From a virus: a stretch of 24,740 nucleotides of DNA. The notes under the pieces are model-generated. The model saw nothing but the letters and a program-made list of their open reading frames with translations, was not told where the DNA came from and did no database searches. The stretch's first letter is position 1. The number at the start of each line of letters is the position of its first letter. Positions 3,064-23,720 of this stretch are shown in pieces. The DNA is taken from IMG/VR virus record IMGVR_UViG_3300009034_000199, positions 1 to 24,740 of that record; one strand, given 5' to 3'. A program made the position numbers and the translations under genes.

Positions 3064-3105
3064 ATTCTGGGATAGGCTGGCTACAACCTACCCCAGAATG
3101 TAGCC
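3064..3105 (-). promoter_or_regulatory. Mutually exclusive hairpins before the HNH gene
   Basis: A 13-bp stem pairs 3064-3076 with 3087-3099 (one G-U wobble, 10-nt loop). The loop segment GGCTACA (3079-3085) can instead pair with TGTAGCC (3099-3105). The two stems overlap and the linkers are too short for a simple pseudoknot, so only one can form fully at a time. The structure sits directly before the AAGGAGG ribosome site of the nuclease gene and could gate its translation. Confidence 0.5.
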
Positions 3106-3127
3106 ATCATAGGTAGGGATGTTGCTG

Positions 3128-3373
3128 TTAACTTATCGGATCACTTTCTTTCCAATTCTTTATTAACCCAATGTCGAATGCTCTTGTTTCATAATGAATT
3201 GGCTTTCCTTTTAATCCCTTTTGTTTATTGTTATAATTTTCTATTGCCTTATGTGTAGGCAATTCTTTAACTTCCATCCAAGTTTCTCTTTCAATTTCAA
3301 TAAATAAATGGTCTTTACCTGTGTCATCAATACACTTGGCTTTTCTTACTCTGTGTTTTTTCATTTTAGTCAC
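3128..3373 (-). CDS. Hypothetical protein, 81 aa
   Basis: Not recognised. The ATG at 3373 overlaps the end of the upstream gene. The protein opens with a basic stretch (KMKKHRVRKAKCIDDTGKDH), then a strand LFIEIERETWMEVKELP, a Lys/Asn-rich middle and a final LIKNWKESDPIS. It reads as a small alpha/beta protein with no metal site or membrane span. A leader with extensive secondary structure lies before the upstream partner gene. Confidence 0.6.
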   Translation of the reverse strand: MTKMKKHRVRKAKCIDDTGKDHLFIEIERETWMEVKELPTHKAIENYNNKQKGLKGKPIHYETRAFDIGLIKNWKESDPIS

Positions 3374-3567
3374 CTCCCTTCAAATCTTTTCACTACTGTC
3401 TCGAAATTTCTTATCATATTAGATTCGGTTTCAACATAATACTTGCCTTTCGAAAGAATAATCACCACATAGTCATTGGTCTTTTTTAGCTTGTCAAATT
3501 CCTTTACTGCTTCTTCTTTTGTTTCAAACTTTGCAAATTCAATTACATTCTGTTTCATTTCAATCAC
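3370..3567 (-). CDS. Hypothetical protein, 65 aa
   Basis: Not recognised. The ribosome site GGAAGGGAGGTGATTGAA is strong, and the ATG at 3567 could be replaced by the internal ATG three codons later. The fold looks like beta-alpha-beta-beta: VIEFAKFETKEEAVKEFDKL, then DYVVIILSKGKYYVETES. This resembles the many tiny phage proteins with a single ferredoxin-like half. It overlaps the next gene by 4 nt (ATGA). A 13-bp hairpin precedes its ribosome site by about 14 nt. Confidence 0.65.
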   Translation of the reverse strand: MIEMKQNVIEFAKFETKEEAVKEFDKLKKTNDYVVIILSKGKYYVETESNMIRNFETVVKRFEGR

Positions 3568-3576
3568 CTCCCTTCC

Positions 3577-3777
3577 TTAATATAATACAGGACAAGAGAC
3601 CCAGATATGGACTCCCTTCCGTTTGGGTATTTGAAATCTCTTGCCCTGTTGCAAAAATTGGAAATAAGGAAGGCAGGTACTCAGGAGCGGACACAGGGGA
3701 GTTTGGAAACTCCTGAAGTGTTTTAAACCTTTTCCCTGCCTGTTAATTTTTAATTTCATTTTATTATGTCCGCTTTT
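3577..3777 (-). other. Gene-free structured leader, about 200 nt
   Basis: I accept no gene here: the one ATG-initiated frame (3759-3577) lacks a ribosome site and is low-complexity. The stretch is rich in pairings on the transcribed strand. These are AGCGGACA/TGTCCGCT (3686-3693 with 3767-3774), GGCAGG/CCTGCC (3672-3677 with 3735-3740, crossing the first), the palindrome GGAGTTTGGAAACTCC (3698-3713), and the 13-bp hairpin 3587-3649. It looks like a structured 5' leader or an unrecognised small RNA. Confidence 0.5.
3587..3649 (-). promoter_or_regulatory. 13-bp hairpin before the 3567 gene
   Basis: Positions 3587-3599 pair with 3637-3649 over 13 bp, with one G-U wobble on the transcribed strand (ACAGGGCAAGAGA with TCTCTTGTCCTGT). 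A 4-bp inner stem (CCCA/TGGG) lies inside the 37-nt loop. No U-tract follows. The stem ends close to the ribosome site of the 65-aa gene. Confidence 0.55.
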
Positions 3778-4359
3778 TTATTTTACTAAATCGCATAAAC
3801 TTTTATCAACATTGAAACTACCAAATTTTCCTTTAATTGTAAAACTTTTTTTATTTATTTTCACTATTTCAACCAAATTAGTAACCATCCAATAAATTTT
3901 ATCACCTACTTTTATATTATTAGTAAGATAATCTCTTTTTGCTTGATGTCTTTTTTCGGCATCACCTTTTACTCTTACGCCATTAGTTATAGATTCAGCT
4001 TTTTCTCTTGCCTTTTCTGCCTCGTTTCTTAATTCCATCCCTTTATCATATCTGTCAATCAATTTTTTCCTAAATGGAATATGTCCAGGTTGAGTTAAAA
4101 AAGATGTGTCCCCTCTAAATTTATCAAACCCTGATTGTTTTTCATCTGCTATTTTTTCTAATCTTTGAGCTTTGTTTATCAATCTTTCTGCTTTTTTATC
4201 AACCCTTTCCTGTCTAAATTTTCTAATATCTTCCGTTGTTAACTCATGTTCAAGGCAAAATATACCTGCCCATTTAACATACTGAACTTGAGTCCCAATT
4301 TCAATTTTTTTTCCGCACATTTTACAACTGCTTTCATACTTGTTTGTTATTGTTCTCAT
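3778..4359 (-). CDS. DUF3560-like coiled-coil protein with N-terminal zinc finger
   Basis: 193 aa. The N terminus carries a treble-clef-like zinc site with C12, C15, C35 and H38 (SSCKMCGKKIEIGTQVQY, then GIFCLEHE), comparable to the small finger found in many phage and plasmid DNA proteins. Residues 50-135 are a long charged helix region, KKAERLINKAQRLEKIADEK followed by LTQPGHIPFRKKLIDRYDKG. This matches the layout of DUF3560, where an ERAERL...Q-P--GHHSE segment is diagnostic. The C-terminal 45 residues form a small beta domain (VGDKIYWMVTNLVEIVKI). DUF3560 proteins are plasmid- and phage-borne with unknown role. The ribosome site ACAGGAGGAAAA is part of a leader repeated before neighbouring genes. 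Confidence 0.65.
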   Translation of the reverse strand: MRTITNKYESSCKMCGKKIEIGTQVQYVKWAGIFCLEHELTTEDIRKFRQERVDKKAERLINKAQRLEKIADEKQSGFDKFRGDTSFLTQPGHIPFRKKLIDRYDKGMELRNEAEKAREKAESITNGVRVKGDAEKRHQAKRDYLTNNIKVGDKIYWMVTNLVEIVKINKKSFTIKGKFGSFNVDKSLCDLVK

Positions 4360-4383
4360 TTTTCCTCCTGTGTCTGCTTTTTC

Positions 4384-4554
4384 TTAATGCTTAACATTTC
4401 TTTTTTCTATCAATTCAAGATTCTTGGTATTGAACCAATATTTCTTAAAACCTTTCTCGGAACTTTCAATAAATGATTTGACAATAAGTGGACTGCATTT
4501 CCAATGCTTACAAGCTTCATTTAGTGACATTTTTTCTACTTTTAATTTTTTCAT
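4384..4554 (-). CDS. Small hypothetical protein, possible HTH, 56 aa
   Basis: 57 codons from ATG 4554 to TAA 4384. The ribosome site ACAGGAGAAG belongs to the repeated GCGG-CACAGGAG leader. MSLNEACKHWKCSPLIVKSF (residues 9-28) has helix-turn-helix character, with small and hydrophobic residues at the expected turn. A basic tail (EKRNVKH) follows. As the second gene after the 4888-4860 promoter it could be a regulator, but the family is not recognised. The next gene's ribosome site starts only a few bases after its stop. Confidence 0.6.
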   Translation of the reverse strand: MKKLKVEKMSLNEACKHWKCSPLIVKSFIESSEKGFKKYWFNTKNLELIEKRNVKH

Positions 4555-4628
4555 TTCTTCTCCTGTGCCCGCTTAAATTTTTAACTGCTTAATCCTGCCC
4601 CCTATTATAAGGAAGCAAGTTTAAAAAG

Positions 4629-4817
4629 TTATTTTAATAAATCACTGAGTTCTTCAAGTATTTTTTCTTCCGCATAAGTATGCTTTTCATAAGCACATCT
4701 TTGACAAGCAGTCAAATGAGATTTTGATGCCTCTAATCTGCAATGCTCGAGTTTGCCTTTGTGATACTCAATTGATGTTTTGATTTTTTGTGTCTGCATC
4801 CCGTGTCCGCTTTTCAT
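4629..4817 (-). CDS. Small Cys/His protein, first gene of the leftward operon, 62 aa
   Basis: I place the start at ATG 4817, which has an AGGAGG site 7 nt upstream and lies about 40 nt downstream of a consensus promoter. A longer frame reaching 4919 would begin inside the terminator stem and run through the promoter, so I reject it. The protein has C26, C38 and C41 with several His (SHLTACQRCAYEKHTYAEEK), suggesting a metal-binding knuckle between two helices. It ends in an acidic helix EEKILEELSDLLK. Function unknown. Being first after the promoter, it is likely expressed early. Confidence 0.7.
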   Translation of the reverse strand: MKSGHGMQTQKIKTSIEYHKGKLEHCRLEASKSHLTACQRCAYEKHTYAEEKILEELSDLLK

Positions 4818-4859
4818 TTCCCTACCTCCTGTATCCGCTATTATTTGCTTCCTGATAGT

Positions 4860-4888
4860 ATTATAACATGATAATTCCTGTTTGTCAA
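4860..4888 (-). promoter_or_regulatory. Consensus sigma70 promoter for the leftward early-type operon
   Basis: TTGACA (4888-4883) and TATAAT (4865-4860) are separated by exactly 17 bp on the minus strand: a perfect match to both hexamers at optimal spacing. It lies between the late terminator (4904-4930) and the 4817 gene. The only other promoter I find (23801-23773) shares CCTTGACA and ATGTTATAA with it. Confidence 0.92.
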
Positions 4889-4900
4889 GGGGGTGTGACA

Positions 4901-4930
4901 AAAAAATCCGAGGCATCACACCTCGGATTT
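4901..4930 (-). terminator. Rho-independent terminator of the late operon
   Basis: A perfect 10-bp stem (4904-4913 with 4921-4930) and a 7-nt loop are followed on the transcribed strand by a run of T that starts within the stem and ends at 4901. It sits 31 nt after the holin stop and directly before the next promoter, so it closes the long structural/lysis transcript. Confidence 0.95.
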
Positions 4931-4961
4931 AGTTAGCCAATTTATCGTCGAGATAGTATTT

Positions 4962-5216
4962 TTATCCGTTCTTGATTCCAGCTCTTATGGTACAAGCAAT
5001 GACTGCTTCAATTACTATCTTGACTAATTCTGCCGTTCCAATCGTACCACTTATCCATGCAATAACTCCACCGATAATGGCACTGATTGCAACAAAATAA
5101 GTCTTCTTGCCTCTTAACCCTTCCCTGATTGAATCAAACATTTTCTTGCCTCCTAACTTCTTTAAGATTTTATTGATAATAAAATTCAAAACAATTTTCT
5201 GCATCCATTTTTTCAT
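4962..5216 (-). CDS. Holin with two possible starts
   Basis: 84 aa from ATG 5216 (GGAGG 7 nt upstream, ATGA overlap with the endolysin stop). Two hydrophobic segments, about residues 41-60 (TYFVAISAIIGGVIAWISGT) and 64-80 (ELVKIVIEAVIACTIRAG), fit a small two-span holin that forms membrane lesions and releases the endolysin. A second ATG (5141, residue 26) carries its own AGGAGG 7 nt upstream and would give a 59-aa form lacking the strongly basic, amphipathic N-terminal 25 residues. Dual-start holins are known to make effector and inhibitor forms. Position after the endolysin and before the operon terminator supports the holin call. Confidence 0.8.
   Translation of the reverse strand: MKKWMQKIVLNFIINKILKKLGGKKMFDSIREGLRGKKTYFVAISAIIGGVIAWISGTIGTAELVKIVIEAVIACTIRAGIKNG
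5139..5154 (-). promoter_or_regulatory. Internal ribosome site and start in the holin gene
   Basis: AGGAGG (5154-5149) lies 7 nt before an in-frame ATG (5141-5139). It is as strong as the site of the full-length start, which suggests two holin forms of 84 and 59 aa. Confidence 0.6.
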
Positions 5217-5815
5217 GTCTCTACCTCCGCTCTAATAAATTCAAACAATTTTTCTGCAACCATAGATTGATTATTTTCATCATTCAAATATTTTTCATCT
5301 TCTTCGTTTGTTAGAAATCCTAATTCAACAAGTATAGCTGACATCTTTGTTTTCTTCAGCACCCTGAAAGTTCCGGATTTAGTATATCTATTTTTTGTAA
5401 ACTTTAACTGGTGTAAACACGCTTGGCAACCATGAGCCAAATCCTTTCCTTTCTTTGATTTACCATAATACCAAACTTCAAATCCCTTTATACTTTTATC
5501 AACCACCGCATTACAATGTATTGAAACAAAAATCTTTGCATTGGTTTGATTGGCTCTTTTACATCTTTCATCTAATGAAATAAATCTATCACCCCATCGT
5601 GTTAACATGTAACCAATACTATGTCTTGAAAGAAAGAAAGCAAGTCGATTAGTAATCTCAAGGCAAATATTCTTTTCCAGTGTTCCAGAAAATCCTTTAC
5701 ATCCAGGATCCTTCCCACCATGATCTGCATCCAGAATTATTTTAATTTCTGGCTTTTTAATTTTTCGGTATTCAATAAAAATATTCTTGAAAAATTTACC
5801 AAAATCAATTTTCAT
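5213..5815 (-). CDS. N-acetylmuramoyl-L-alanine amidase endolysin (Amidase_3)
   Basis: Zinc amidase that cuts the bond between muramic acid and the stem peptide in the host wall. I choose ATG 5815 (GAGG 6 nt upstream); a TTG four codons earlier overlaps that site. On the 200-aa form the zinc ligands are H32 in LDADHGGKDPG, E47 in TLEKNICLEI and H100 in VSIHCNA. The catalytic Glu165 is in AILVELGFLTN. The order and spacing are those of the AmiC/CwlM-type catalytic domain. The protein is only slightly longer than that domain: the first 25 residues are an extra basic stretch, there is no wall-binding domain, and there is no signal peptide, so release depends on the downstream holin. Confidence 0.93.
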   Translation of the reverse strand: MKIDFGKFFKNIFIEYRKIKKPEIKIILDADHGGKDPGCKGFSGTLEKNICLEITNRLAFFLSRHSIGYMLTRWGDRFISLDERCKRANQTNAKIFVSIHCNAVVDKSIKGFEVWYYGKSKKGKDLAHGCQACLHQLKFTKNRYTKSGTFRVLKKTKMSAILVELGFLTNEEDEKYLNDENNQSMVAEKLFEFIRAEVET

Positions 5816-5829
5816 ATCTAACCTCAAAA

Positions 5830-6042
5830 TTATTCTGGCTCAACATCAGTTACCACTGCTCTTATATCCAATCTTAAACTTACTTTCTTATTCTCTGGAA
5901 TAGTTAAGTCCCATGTCTTTGCATCAACTTCTAAAACTTCTTCGTCCACAAGAATTTTAATGTTTTGACCAGCGACTAAATTAAGACCTGTACTTACATT
6001 AATTACTTTTCTTTCCGGAATTATTTTTACTTCGAAAGCCAC
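5830..6042 (-). CDS. Small beta-rich virion-associated protein, 70 aa
   Basis: Not recognised. All-beta pattern: FEVKIIPERKVINVSTGLNL, IKILVDEEVLEVDAKTWDLT, KKVSLRLDIRAVVTD, with a VxVxx periodicity that suggests a single small barrel or Ig-like half. It lies between a receptor-type tail protein and the endolysin, 9 nt after the former, with an AGGAGG ribosome site. It may be a tail-tip accessory or trimerisation element. No membrane span. Confidence 0.6.
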   Translation of the reverse strand: MAFEVKIIPERKVINVSTGLNLVAGQNIKILVDEEVLEVDAKTWDLTIPENKKVSLRLDIRAVVTDVEPE

Positions 6043-12235: not shown

Positions 12236-13651
12236 TTAATAAGTCGACGTATTGTTCTGAAGAATTGCTTTTACTGAATAAGTATCAGTCGAATCATATT
12301 TAATTTTCATATCAGCAGCAACTCTAATAACTCCACCGCCAGGAACATTAATCGGATATGTTAAAAATAAAACTTTTGGCAGGTGGAAAAATAAATCATA
12401 GTAATGATTACCAGAAATTTGTGCTCCATGAAAATACAATAAGTATTCTCTCGTAGCCCAACCTTGAAAATATGTACTGAAATCAGTTATCTGTTCTGGA
12501 ATAATAGTTTTGGATATTGTTCCAACTCTATAAGCATCACTCTCAATCTTATGAATTGTATTTGAGCTATTCAACGTCGGAGTAGCCACACATCCATTAG
12601 TCCACCCAAAATTCAAATCTGTTACTAAAGTAGAACCATAAAAAATTTCATAGGTAGTAGTGGCATCTGGAGCAGTATGCCAAGCTGAAACTGTTAAAGC
12701 GTCTGTTGTATTACTTATAATTCTTCTGCATTGATTTGCCCCTGTTCCGCCAGTAGTTAAAACTATATTTCCAATTTCTGCATTGGCAGTGAAGGCTCCT
12801 GTATCTACAAGAGTTGTCGTTGAACCTGCCCCACTGGCAGTCGCACCACTTTTCTTACCTATTCCAATGGTACAATCATCCCACATAAAAGGTTCGGTTG
12901 TAGGTAAACCTGACGCAACTGTATTTGCAAGTTCAACAGCAGATTTACCAAGCCATGAAGCAGTGGCAGTCATTATTTTTGCACCAGCACCTATTGCAAA
13001 ATTAAGATTATTAACAACACAACTTGTATATTGAATAGCAGGAGTTGTACCTGTTAAATCTCTATGTAATTCAAGAGTATAGGGTGGAAGTGAACAATGC
13101 TCAGGCCCCACCATAATTTCAAGAGTATCAGCAGCAGCACATGCAGGAGAAGTTACAACGGAAATTTTATTTGAAGTAGCAACCGTATCAGTTATAGTTA
13201 CCCATTGTCCAGCAGCAGCTCCCGTTTTAATATGACACCAACATCCATTGTATATATCATCTGCTGTAACTGAAGTTAAGACTATTTCTGTTCCACTTGT
13301 TGTTGCTTGGGCGGTATCAGAAAGGATAGCACGTCCAGCAGGTGGTTGAAAGACGTGTGTATAAGAGCCAGTATTATTAGTAGTCGCTGGAGAGCGCAAA
13401 GCACTTCTTAAAAGATAACCTATGCCAGCAGGATGAACTTCATGTACCGAATCCCCAGCAACAGTATTCAATCCTTCATATGAATCTGGTTCGTCTCGAC
13501 GAGCTCTTACGTCTGCTGAAATTAATTCTTCAATTGTCAAATTCAAAGTTTCAGAACTGAATGGTAAATATGCAGTTGCAGCAACCGGTGTTCCAAAAAT
13601 TACTTCCGGTGCAATTCCAAAATGAGCAAGCTTCCCTGTTGTTCCACCCAT
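12236..13651 (-). CDS. Major tail tube protein with two inserted domains, 471 aa
   Basis: The N terminus (GIAPEVIFGTPVAATAYLPF) and the following ISADVRARRDEPDSYEGL match phage tail tube proteins (Phage_tube_2-type), hexamers stacked to form the tail tube. The C terminus (VGTISKTIIPEQITDFSTYF and LPKVLFLTYPINVPGGGVIR) is the other half of the beta barrel. Two extra segments lie inside. One spans about 119-180. The other, about 272-339 (STTTLVDTGAFTANAEIGNI, then GANQCRRIISNTT, then PDATTTYEI), belongs to the same small domain type inserted in the capsid protein. The tube is therefore larger than usual and probably carries surface decorations. Very abundant product; a terminator follows. Confidence 0.88.
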   Translation of the reverse strand: MGGTTGKLAHFGIAPEVIFGTPVAATAYLPFSSETLNLTIEELISADVRARRDEPDSYEGLNTVAGDSVHEVHPAGIGYLLRSALRSPATTNNTGSYTHVFQPPAGRAILSDTAQATTSGTEIVLTSVTADDIYNGCWCHIKTGAAAGQWVTITDTVATSNKISVVTSPACAAADTLEIMVGPEHCSLPPYTLELHRDLTGTTPAIQYTSCVVNNLNFAIGAGAKIMTATASWLGKSAVELANTVASGLPTTEPFMWDDCTIGIGKKSGATASGAGSTTTLVDTGAFTANAEIGNIVLTTGGTGANQCRRIISNTTDALTVSAWHTAPDATTTYEIFYGSTLVTDLNFGWTNGCVATPTLNSSNTIHKIESDAYRVGTISKTIIPEQITDFSTYFQGWATREYLLYFHGAQISGNHYYDLFFHLPKVLFLTYPINVPGGGVIRVAADMKIKYDSTDTYSVKAILQNNTSTY

Positions 13652-21024: not shown

Positions 21025-23613
21025 TTATATAGATGTTGCAAAGTTTGCGTAAATCCCTCTATTGTCAATTATCTCTAAGCCATATTCATATCTCACTTTG
21101 TAACGAATTGTATCATTCGTAAATACCTGCCCAAGTGTCGGTTGATCCTGGACTACAAGAAGAGGAGTTCTTTGATTATCGACATAACCAATCTCAATCG
21201 TTTCACCATCAGCTTTATCAATCACTAAGAACCAATAATATTGGTAGGTTGAGCCCTTAATTGTCGGAGCGTAAATTGTAGTATATACTCCCTTATGAAC
21301 ATTATCCTCAGCCATGTTTGTCGGATTCTTGTCGGAATTTGTTATCGAACGAACTTTCGCTCTTGTCTTTAATCCATGAATTATGAACTTTCCATCCAGC
21401 CCCATTTCCTCATCGTCATTCGAAGCAGTCGAAATCTCATATTTCGTTGTAGCATCTGCCTGTGTGGTAATTGCAGCGAAAGTTAATTTGGTTGCGGTAT
21501 TACTTGCTATAAGAGACATCTGACCAGCTCCTGTTCCGTAAACCAACCGTACATATCGACCTGCCCACTCATTTACATCCCAGGATTTGGTCGAATCCGA
21601 TAAAGTTGTGGTTGAATAATCTCCATCAGCTGTTCCAGCATCTTCGGAAGCCCCTCTTTCTTTCTGCGCAGCTATACCATCAGAAGCATCTGTCAAATGA
21701 TCGTAGCTAAAAGCATTGGTCGAATAGTTGTTAAATATAGTTGAAAATACTGTCGAATTTGTTGGAGTATATGTACCATTCGCTAATAGCAAAGCCATCA
21801 CATCTCTTTCTAATGTTTTCCTTGCTGCTTTTACAACTTTGCTCGGAATCTTTTTAATGTAACCCAAATCATCATTCTTAATTGTTGCCCTCGAAACTGA
21901 CACGAGCCCACCCTTTGTTCCAGGTGTGTAGGTTGCTTCCTCATCATGTGGTTCAAAAAGGTCAGCATAAGCTCCCGCAGTTACAGTCGGTAGAGTTGAC
22001 CATCCACCCCACTTCACTCTCTCTTGCTGTTTGAAATTTGTAACTGGAACTTCTGTTACTATCGGAGCAAATATAAATGGTTTCACTTTGAACTCTTTCG
22101 TTATCCTTTTTGTCATTGAAGTATTCAGAATGTAAGAAAAATCGGCTGTGGTAATTGCTTCCTTCAAGCTACCCATCTTGGTTCTCTTACCAACCCTACC
22201 AGTAACATTCGGATCTTCGGGATGTACTGCTCGGTAAGCTTCCAGAATACTATTGAACCCACCGTGAACTGATTCCTTTAGCTTATCGGGTATTTTTGCT
22301 TGGTCATCTACCATTAAATCCATGGCAGCCTGAATTTTGTCAGCTTCATCAGAAATAACATCAATATCATCCTTCACATCACCCAGTCCATTTATCTCAC
22401 CGCTTTCAGAAAGTTTACCAAGAATCTCTTTCTCTTCCTTCATTACATTTTCAAGTTCCTTTGCTTCAAAAACTTTGTCTTGGAATCTTTTTGATATTTT
22501 ATCCTTAACTAACTGAGGTAACTTGCTTCCGGCAAGTTGTTCTTTTAGTGTGGCAGCACATTCTTTCTTTTGTGTATTCTCTTTCATTGTCTCAACATCT
22601 TTTTTCATTTTATCAATTTCAGTCATCTTTGCTCTCTCTTCCTCAAGTTTCTTTTTATCCGCTGCTTCTTTTACTTTCTTGTCTGCTTCCTCTTTCTCCT
22701 TCGCTTCCCTCGTTTTCTTTTGCTCTTCACTTTCTTTGGCAGCAGGATATTTATAAGCTTTCATCTTTGCTCTTAAATCCTTAAGTAACTTAACTGCCTC
22801 AGCTTTCTTGTCTCCCTCAACTGCTTTAATAATCTCATCTATCATTGCAGATGCAAAAGGAGCGATTGCTTCAGCGAGTTTCTCATCTTTCGGTGGAAAC
22901 TCTTCGCATTCAACTAATCCCTTGATTAGCTCAAACTTCTGCTCTTCTGTAATCTCATCAGGATTAATTCCCTCAATCAAACTTTCCTTGATTTGTTTTG
23001 CCCATTTGTACAACTCTTTTAAAAAATTCATCTCGTTTTCCTCCATATAAAATTTGCTTGCCAATAGTCTTTGAAATTTACCACCGGCAGCAGCATGACT
23101 TACAAGAGTAATTTCATCAATGCTCTTGATTTCATTAACTTTTATTACTTCTTTACCTTCCTCAAATCCTTTCTCTACATCTCCACCACCATCTATACTA
23201 AAACCAAGCAAGGCTTTCTTGCCATATTCCCAAGCCTCTTTCAATAAACTCATTAACCATTTTGCAGTATCAACGATATGAAATCTGGCAAGGATTCCTT
23301 CCTTGGTACGCCCATCCGCATCTTCAAAAGTTCCATAATGGATATTGTCATACCATCCGACAAGATTCTTTAATGTACCTTCAGGGAAAACTTTGCGGAC
23401 AGCTTCAGGCATATGATTCCAAATTTTACCCTTGAATTCATACGCATAAGCCTTAGCTTTCTCAAAAAGCGGTATTGCCTTTTTAAGAACTTCGGGAGGA
23501 TAGTATTTATTATTCAGACTTCTTCCAGCCTGAATTAATACTACATCCCATTCCTTTCCTTCTTTATCTTTTGATTCAATCAGATGTGATGGTGAGAAAA
23601 TTTTCTTTAACAA
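21025..23613 (-). CDS. Prohead protease-scaffold-major capsid fusion, 862 aa
   Basis: One gene encodes what is usually three. On the 862-aa form: residues 1-185 are a prohead-protease-like domain (GRSLNNKYYPPEVLKK; probable catalytic His112 in LARFHIVDT and Ser139 in LLGFSIDGGGD; then IDEITLVSHAAAGG). Residues 190-445 are a charged coiled coil (scaffold/delta-domain). Residues 450-862 are an HK97-fold capsid protein with AYRAVHPEDPNVTG, PVTNFKQQERVKWGGWSTLP, GGLVSVSRATIKNDD and IPSKVVKAARKTLERDV. A small domain is inserted at about 665-727 (YGTGAGQMSLIASNTATKL). I start it at TTG 23613, 7 nt after AAGGAG; the longer TTG at 23652 lies in a hairpin. An internal start at 23031 can give scaffold-capsid without protease. 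Confidence 0.85.
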   Translation of the reverse strand: MLKKIFSPSHLIESKDKEGKEWDVVLIQAGRSLNNKYYPPEVLKKAIPLFEKAKAYAYEFKGKIWNHMPEAVRKVFPEGTLKNLVGWYDNIHYGTFEDADGRTKEGILARFHIVDTAKWLMSLLKEAWEYGKKALLGFSIDGGGDVEKGFEEGKEVIKVNEIKSIDEITLVSHAAAGGKFQRLLASKFYMEENEMNFLKELYKWAKQIKESLIEGINPDEITEEQKFELIKGLVECEEFPPKDEKLAEAIAPFASAMIDEIIKAVEGDKKAEAVKLLKDLRAKMKAYKYPAAKESEEQKKTREAKEKEEADKKVKEAADKKKLEEERAKMTEIDKMKKDVETMKENTQKKECAATLKEQLAGSKLPQLVKDKISKRFQDKVFEAKELENVMKEEKEILGKLSESGEINGLGDVKDDIDVISDEADKIQAAMDLMVDDQAKIPDKLKESVHGGFNSILEAYRAVHPEDPNVTGRVGKRTKMGSLKEAITTADFSYILNTSMTKRITKEFKVKPFIFAPIVTEVPVTNFKQQERVKWGGWSTLPTVTAGAYADLFEPHDEEATYTPGTKGGLVSVSRATIKNDDLGYIKKIPSKVVKAARKTLERDVMALLLANGTYTPTNSTVFSTIFNNYSTNAFSYDHLTDASDGIAAQKERGASEDAGTADGDYSTTTLSDSTKSWDVNEWAGRYVRLVYGTGAGQMSLIASNTATKLTFAAITTQADATTKYEISTASNDDEEMGLDGKFIIHGLKTRAKVRSITNSDKNPTNMAEDNVHKGVYTTIYAPTIKGSTYQYYWFLVIDKADGETIEIGYVDNQRTPLLVVQDQPTLGQVFTNDTIRYKVRYEYGLEIIDNRGIYANFATSI
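23029..23044 (-). promoter_or_regulatory. Internal ribosome site and start at the scaffold boundary
   Basis: GGAGG (23044-23040) lies 8 nt before an in-frame ATG (23031-23029), exactly where the protease domain ends and the scaffold (MNFLKELYKWAKQIKESL) begins. A nested product would lack the protease, as for lambda C/Nu3 and Mu I/Z. Confidence 0.65.
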
Positions 23614-23634
23614 AAAAAGACTCCTTAAAAATAA

Positions 23635-23720
23635 AATTGATTTTGAAATCAATTCATTTCTAATCAGAGTCTTTGGCTACGTTGGGGTTTCTAATTTCAA
23701 ACCACTAATTTGGATTAGTG
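23635..23720 (-). promoter_or_regulatory. Structured 5' leader of the capsid gene
   Basis: Two perfect hairpins lie between the promoter and the ribosome site: CACTAAT/ATTAGTG (23703-23720, 4-nt loop) and AATTGATTT/AAATCAATT (23635-23654, 2-nt spacer). The second is followed by a T-rich stretch and sits 8 nt before the AAGGAG of the 23613 start. The leader has no ORF of its own. It could be an attenuator or an mRNA-stabilising structure. Confidence 0.5.

Follow-up and report, generated by a model that had tools for sequence, protein, structure and literature searches.

In phages lambda and Mu, the head gene pairs C/Nu3 and I/Z each use an in-frame internal start to make a protease-free, co-terminal product. 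In both phages the nested product consists of scaffold alone, with the capsid protein encoded by a separate gene. The herpesvirus pair UL26/UL26.5 also yields a co-terminal nested scaffold with no capsid protein in the chain, and UL26.5 is made from an internal transcript, not from an internal ribosome site. In Gifsy-2, Effantin and co-workers reportedly described, in 2010, a tripartite capsid gene that encodes protease, central domain and capsid protein together. HK97 keeps its protease in a separate gene. Its gp5 is a scaffold, the delta domain, fused to the capsid protein, as stated in PMC10275583. For T4, PMC9026906 describes a second in-frame start in gene 21, where the essential product gp21s is made from Met45.

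The window analyzed here is a 24,740-nt stretch of viral DNA, taken from an IMG/VR fragment whose record counts 24,741 bases. One gene on its minus strand (21025..23613, stop at 21025-21027) encodes a fusion that the first-pass annotation had read as protease, scaffold and capsid. This reading was right: the N-terminus has a fold like that of T4 gp21 and the herpesvirus assemblins, and the C-terminus belongs to Phage_capsid_4. The TTG at 23613-23611, preceded at 7 nt by AAGGAG (23626-23621; whole element 23611..23626; SD dG -8.7), appears a likelier start for the fusion than the listed start at 23652, and reading from it gives a protein of 862 aa (about 97 kDa). TTG would be a weak start codon for this protease-bearing form.

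The C-terminus of the window protein matches PF25209 (Phage_capsid_4) at 93.5 bits against a cut-off of 27, identifying an HK97-fold capsid protein. The profiles NF045540 and NF045541, both named 'protease/major capsid protein fusion', give 130.4 and 123.7 bits, under their cut-offs of 475 and 525, and the best-matching stretch begins only at residue 267 or 312, in the scaffold and capsid part. The scaffold domain spans residues 208-498 (22159..23031, minus strand) and is rich in gp21-like L-x-E motifs, whose family-wide density is 3.12 per 100 aa in the scaffold versus 0.38 in the capsid core (about 8-fold). An L-x-E-type motif, with L, I, V, M or F allowed at its first residue, also lies where scaffold meets capsid in 100 of 115 clusters of homologous fusions, versus 108 of 1087 control windows. 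This definition is broader than the L/I-x-E after which T4 gp21 cuts, according to PMC9026906. In the window protein the junction motif is L-K-E|A (22156..22167, minus strand), and a predicted cut after E498 would leave a mature major capsid protein of 377 aa (about 42 kDa; 21028..22158, minus strand). In the window and in close relatives, the capsid protein also holds a small inserted domain (residues 671-744 of the window protein, P0001; about 21421-21642) that resembles a stretch at 12632-12850 on the minus strand, with 43% identity over 97 columns. The latter lies in a 471-aa structural protein, a minor tail protein by PHROG.

The protease domain (23053..23613, minus strand, limits approximate) was assigned from profile matches and predicted fold. 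In the window protein it has no match in Pfam, PF03420 (Peptidase_S77) included, and PF03420 matches 2 of 51 family members (best 3.6e-4), while the head maturation protease profile phrog_15531 matches 48 of the 51. The predicted structure (pLDDT 88.3) aligned best to T4 gp21 (5jbl; Z 10.4, 128 residues, rmsd 2.8), followed by herpesvirus proteases (VZV 1vzv at Z 7.3, and below). Foldseek returned no match in the PDB at E <= 0.001, and against viral models it matched capsid maturation proteases. Among the 51 sequences S137 is invariant and H65 is present in at least 90%; these correspond to S152 (23199-23197) and H80 (23415-23413) of P0001 and are the presumed catalytic pair. As modeled, the domain has the gp21/assemblin fold, and by this the window protease is of the T4 gp21 type (S77).

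The first-pass annotation had also claimed that a well-spaced GGAGG and ATG sit at the protease/scaffold border, and inspection bears this out. The reverse complement of 23029-23044 reads GGAGG-AAAACGAG-ATG, with the Shine-Dalgarno (SD) motif at 23040..23044, a spacer of 8 nt and the ATG at 23029..23031. The ATG is in frame with the fusion, at codon 208 of the 875-codon ORF listed from 23652, and lies 19 codons past the AGG motif that closes the protease domain. Starting here, a nested in-frame gene (21025..23031, minus strand), predicted from sequence comparison, would encode scaffold and capsid together as a 668-aa protein (about 75 kDa). That such a product would include the capsid protein, as had been suggested, follows from the reading frame.

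The window contains 17 copies of GGAGG-N5-9-ATG, all on the minus strand, where shuffles predict 3.45 and never exceed 9. As we read the list of ORFs, 14 of these copies coincide with a listed ORF start or fall at most 4 codons from one, two are 25-34 codons into short ORFs, and the capsid-gene site is the sole one deep within a long ORF. Because the motif is mostly found at ORF starts, the internal site resembles the normal gene-start signal of this phage, and it looks like that ordinary signal placed mid-gene. A separate case of paired starts was seen at 4962-5216 (minus strand), where a protein of 84 aa that contains a hydrophobic segment has in-frame ATGs at codons 1 and 26 (the second at 5141-5139), each with a well-spaced GGAGG. 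The gene adjoins an endolysin (Amidase_3, 5213-5827), and no family matched its product below E 0.01. Lambda S105/S107 is a dual-start holin, and by analogy the 84-aa protein is a possible one.

Homologues were retrieved with the protease domain alone, as a query of viral contigs with the full-length window protein gave no match. The set contains 198 records, with the window included and some contigs present more than once, and HMM searches of it identified 178 ORFs that fuse protease and capsid, 3 with protease only and 16 with capsid only. The fusions reduce to 149 unique boundaries and 116 clusters (<70% identity). In one of them (L012, ORF 3095-5929) the open frame continues far upstream of the fusion, through sequence that on visual inspection looks methyltransferase-like, so a fourth domain may be present in the full-length protein. 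No clean split-gene relative with a stop at the protease/scaffold border was found among the homologues inspected. Candidates that we rejected were L321, whose apparent split we read as a frameshift because its ClpP frame is shifted and a short tandem repeat is present; L110, L113 and the second capsid ORF of L098, which are without a gp21-type protease in the same frame; and Blf4, whose capsid gene is unfused.

If the internal site is used, the SD and ATG were expected to persist in diverged homologues, and fusions that had lost either one were to count against it. In boundary windows of 21 codons, set after the homologues had been viewed, an in-frame ATG with an SD pairing at -5 kcal/mol or below was present in 108 of 116 clusters, as compared with 190 of 3355 control windows from the same genes. 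The thresholds of -5, -7 and -9 kcal/mol were post hoc choices and all were computed; at -9 the counts were 55/116 and 11/3355. GTG takes the place of ATG in six clusters, and allowing either codon at -5 raised the count to 114/116, versus 461/3355 in controls. The misses were L053 and L153 (2/116), where SD pairing is only weak. Out-of-frame ATGs with an SD were rare at the boundary (3/116 and 1/116 in the two other frames). The first five distinct homologous genes, with the window included and L010 identical to L011, all have the internal start and write it in different codons. The site was kept in 45 of 47 clusters at 50% clustering and in 17 of 17 at 40%, and it persists among fusions whose linkers differ in length and residues. 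Judged by these comparisons, the gene has, at the protease/scaffold border, the conserved in-frame start and SD expected of a nested head gene of the lambda C/Nu3 kind.

Conservation of this kind bears on the idea that the site is a leftover, in which once-separate protease and scaffold-capsid genes were joined by loss of a stop and the old SD and ATG linger unused. Separate prohead proteases are common, and the site sits precisely at the domain border, as a leftover should. An unused site would decay, however, yet this one is kept in fusions that have diverged below 40-50% identity while the linker changes, GTG can replace the ATG, and codon choice is still under selection (see below). We therefore consider it very improbable that the site is a mere remnant, although gene fusion by stop loss may be how it arose.

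Selection for a functional internal start should be visible in codon choice, and we compared each gene with synonymous-codon shuffles of itself, which keep the protein (111 cases). An SD at -5 was found in 108 of the 111 real genes versus 61-79 in 100 shuffles; a separate run reached a maximum of 82, still below the observed value. At 1420 other in-frame ATGs, SDs were instead depleted (208 versus a shuffle mean of 238 and minimum of 213; at -7, 27 versus a mean of 65 and minimum of 50). Folding over 50 nt at the internal start was weaker than in shuffled sequences (-7.72 vs -9.89), whereas 300 other ATGs folded more strongly than shuffled (-12.81 vs -11.74). These comparisons indicate that codon choice at the internal site is under selection.

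The same data address a protein-level explanation, that an acidic linker or x-x-E cleavage site followed by a structural Met is what is conserved and that its GAG and GGA codons mimic an SD. The linker is indeed Glu-rich, a Gifsy-2-like clade of ClpP-type fusions conserves the amino acids that flank the Met, and the protein-preserving shuffles reach -5 in about 69 of 111 cases, so the residues account for part of the SD signal. They do not account for the observed 108, which lies above every shuffle in both runs, and Glu/Lys-rich scaffold windows, the best protein-level control, reach -5 in only 21 of 180. The residues beneath the motif also vary widely (QED, KE, GG, KEE, GD, TED and others), the motif falls in each of the three codon phases, one of them dominant, and the Met becomes a GTG-coded Val in six clusters. 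Given this, protein constraint as the whole explanation has very little probability in our estimation. Taken by itself, the window gene has an SD that is unexceptional for the protein it encodes (p about 0.36 in synonymous shuffles), and the single-gene test is weak, with 16 of 111 genes at 0.05. The strong evidence for an internal start is thus comparative and comes from the ensemble.

We also examined fusions that carry other protease types. Among S78/HK97-type fusions (68 ORFs, 47 clusters), an ATG with SD at -5 was present in 36 of 47 clusters, versus 45 of 499 control windows and 11 to 26 of 46 in shuffles. The remaining 11 of 47 fall below this threshold, four with essentially no SD and one without an ATG in the window; the weak or SD-less cases are L005, L213, L214, L311, L331, L340, L350, L357, L371 and L380, and the one with no ATG in the boundary window is L347. 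For ClpP-type fusions (107 ORFs, 19 clusters), the count was 18 of 19 clusters (L324 missing) versus 23 of 210 control windows and 4 to 14 in shuffles, in a post hoc window of 0-50 codons that was widened after inspection of the sequences from 0-25 codons, where 8 of 19 were positive. At -7 and -9 the ClpP-type counts show no excess over shuffles. By inspection, an internal SD and ATG are found in Gifsy-2, Fels-1, mEp213, F10, S1, VP882 and others; in Gifsy-2 the pair is in frame at the ClpP/scaffold border, at codon 221. Profile sampling of 369 genomes found NF045540 and NF045541 in 3 genomes each, too few alone.

In some ClpP-type fusions, the protease domain itself contains a conserved Met, in an ETWM motif, that also has a strong SD ahead of it (codon 186 in L201, codon 185 in L203 and L215, codon 176 in L200). 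This is probably a sequence accident, and it means that single sites prove nothing. Taking the three types together, we favor, with some reserve, a general rule: where a protease of the gp21 type, the HK97/S78 type or the unrelated ClpP fold is fused before a scaffold-capsid, selection would keep an internal ribosome site at the border. Gag/Gag-Pol-like stoichiometry would then be reached by nested initiation, and a large class of genes that carry only a protease or fusion annotation would also encode the main capsid product, which goes unannotated.

For the window, we hypothesize that one cistron very probably gives two nested co-terminal proteins, a minor 97-kDa protease-scaffold-capsid and a major 75-kDa scaffold-capsid. 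Ribosomes starting at the weak upstream TTG would make the 862-aa form, and those loading at the internal GGAGG/ATG would make the 668-aa form. Both would co-assemble via their scaffold and capsid domains, with the protease as a minority passenger in the procapsid. The protease would then cut at L-x-E sites and remove itself and the scaffold, leaving one type of mature capsid subunit. Co-assembly, a minority built-in protease and cleavage to one subunit are known in HK97, lambda and T4, and it is from these systems that we infer the same steps here; initiation in vivo and the ratio of the two forms are deduced as well.

The predicted ratio depends on the upstream start, which in 9 of 10 near kin (window included; the exception is L157) is a TTG, a GTG or an ATG lacking an SD. 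Across the family, the internal site outscores every upstream candidate in 89 of 116 clusters, where the upstream score is the best among several candidates over a longer stretch. The upstream site is better in 27 of 116, and the upstream candidate is an ATG with an SD in 69 of 116, which makes minority status of the protease form less firm family-wide. From these start signals, the protease form is likely to be minor in the near kin of the window and plausibly so across the whole family.

A different use of the start can be envisioned, in which it serves a minor product of another role and not the bulk of the shell. T4 gp21s offers a precedent in PMC9026906, and the upstream ATG is plausibly strong in those 69 clusters. 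The nested product here, however, holds the entire scaffold and capsid protein, and upstream starts in the near kin are weak. A table in the same source, PMC9026906, gives 72 copies of protease versus 930 of capsid protein for T4 proheads, such that a 1:1 ratio would be unusual. We thus regard a minor product as rather unlikely and favor scaffold-capsid as the major one.

A nested start explains how a single gene can serve both a protease expected to be scarce and the virion's most abundant protein. Another consequence is that the true capsid precursor in such phages begins at a point that no record marks: annotated fusion records have one CDS and none nested in 18 of 18. The unmarked start affects capsid proteomics, the expression of such capsids and annotation rules. 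A literature search, thin on subscription journals and so only weak as evidence of absence, found no paper describing an internal start in a protease-capsid fusion. Tripartite capsid genes and nested in-frame head genes are both known; their combination, absent from the papers that this search turned up, appears near-universal across three protease types.

Compared with described systems, the window shares with Gifsy-2 and with NF045540/NF045541 a single gene that joins protease, central domain and capsid, but its protease is of the T4 gp21 type, whereas theirs are ClpP or S78. With T4 gene 21 it has in common the protease fold, a predicted L/I-x-E cleavage logic and a second in-frame start; the T4 start, however, lies inside the protease gene itself, and scaffold and capsid are separate genes there. 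Herpesvirus UL26/UL26.5 is alike in its co-terminal nested scaffold and in a similar protease fold (VZV 1vzv). In contrast to lambda C/Nu3 and Mu I/Z, the nested product of the window would be scaffold and capsid together, and this predicted 668-aa protein would be the equivalent of the HK97 gp5 precursor with its delta domain.
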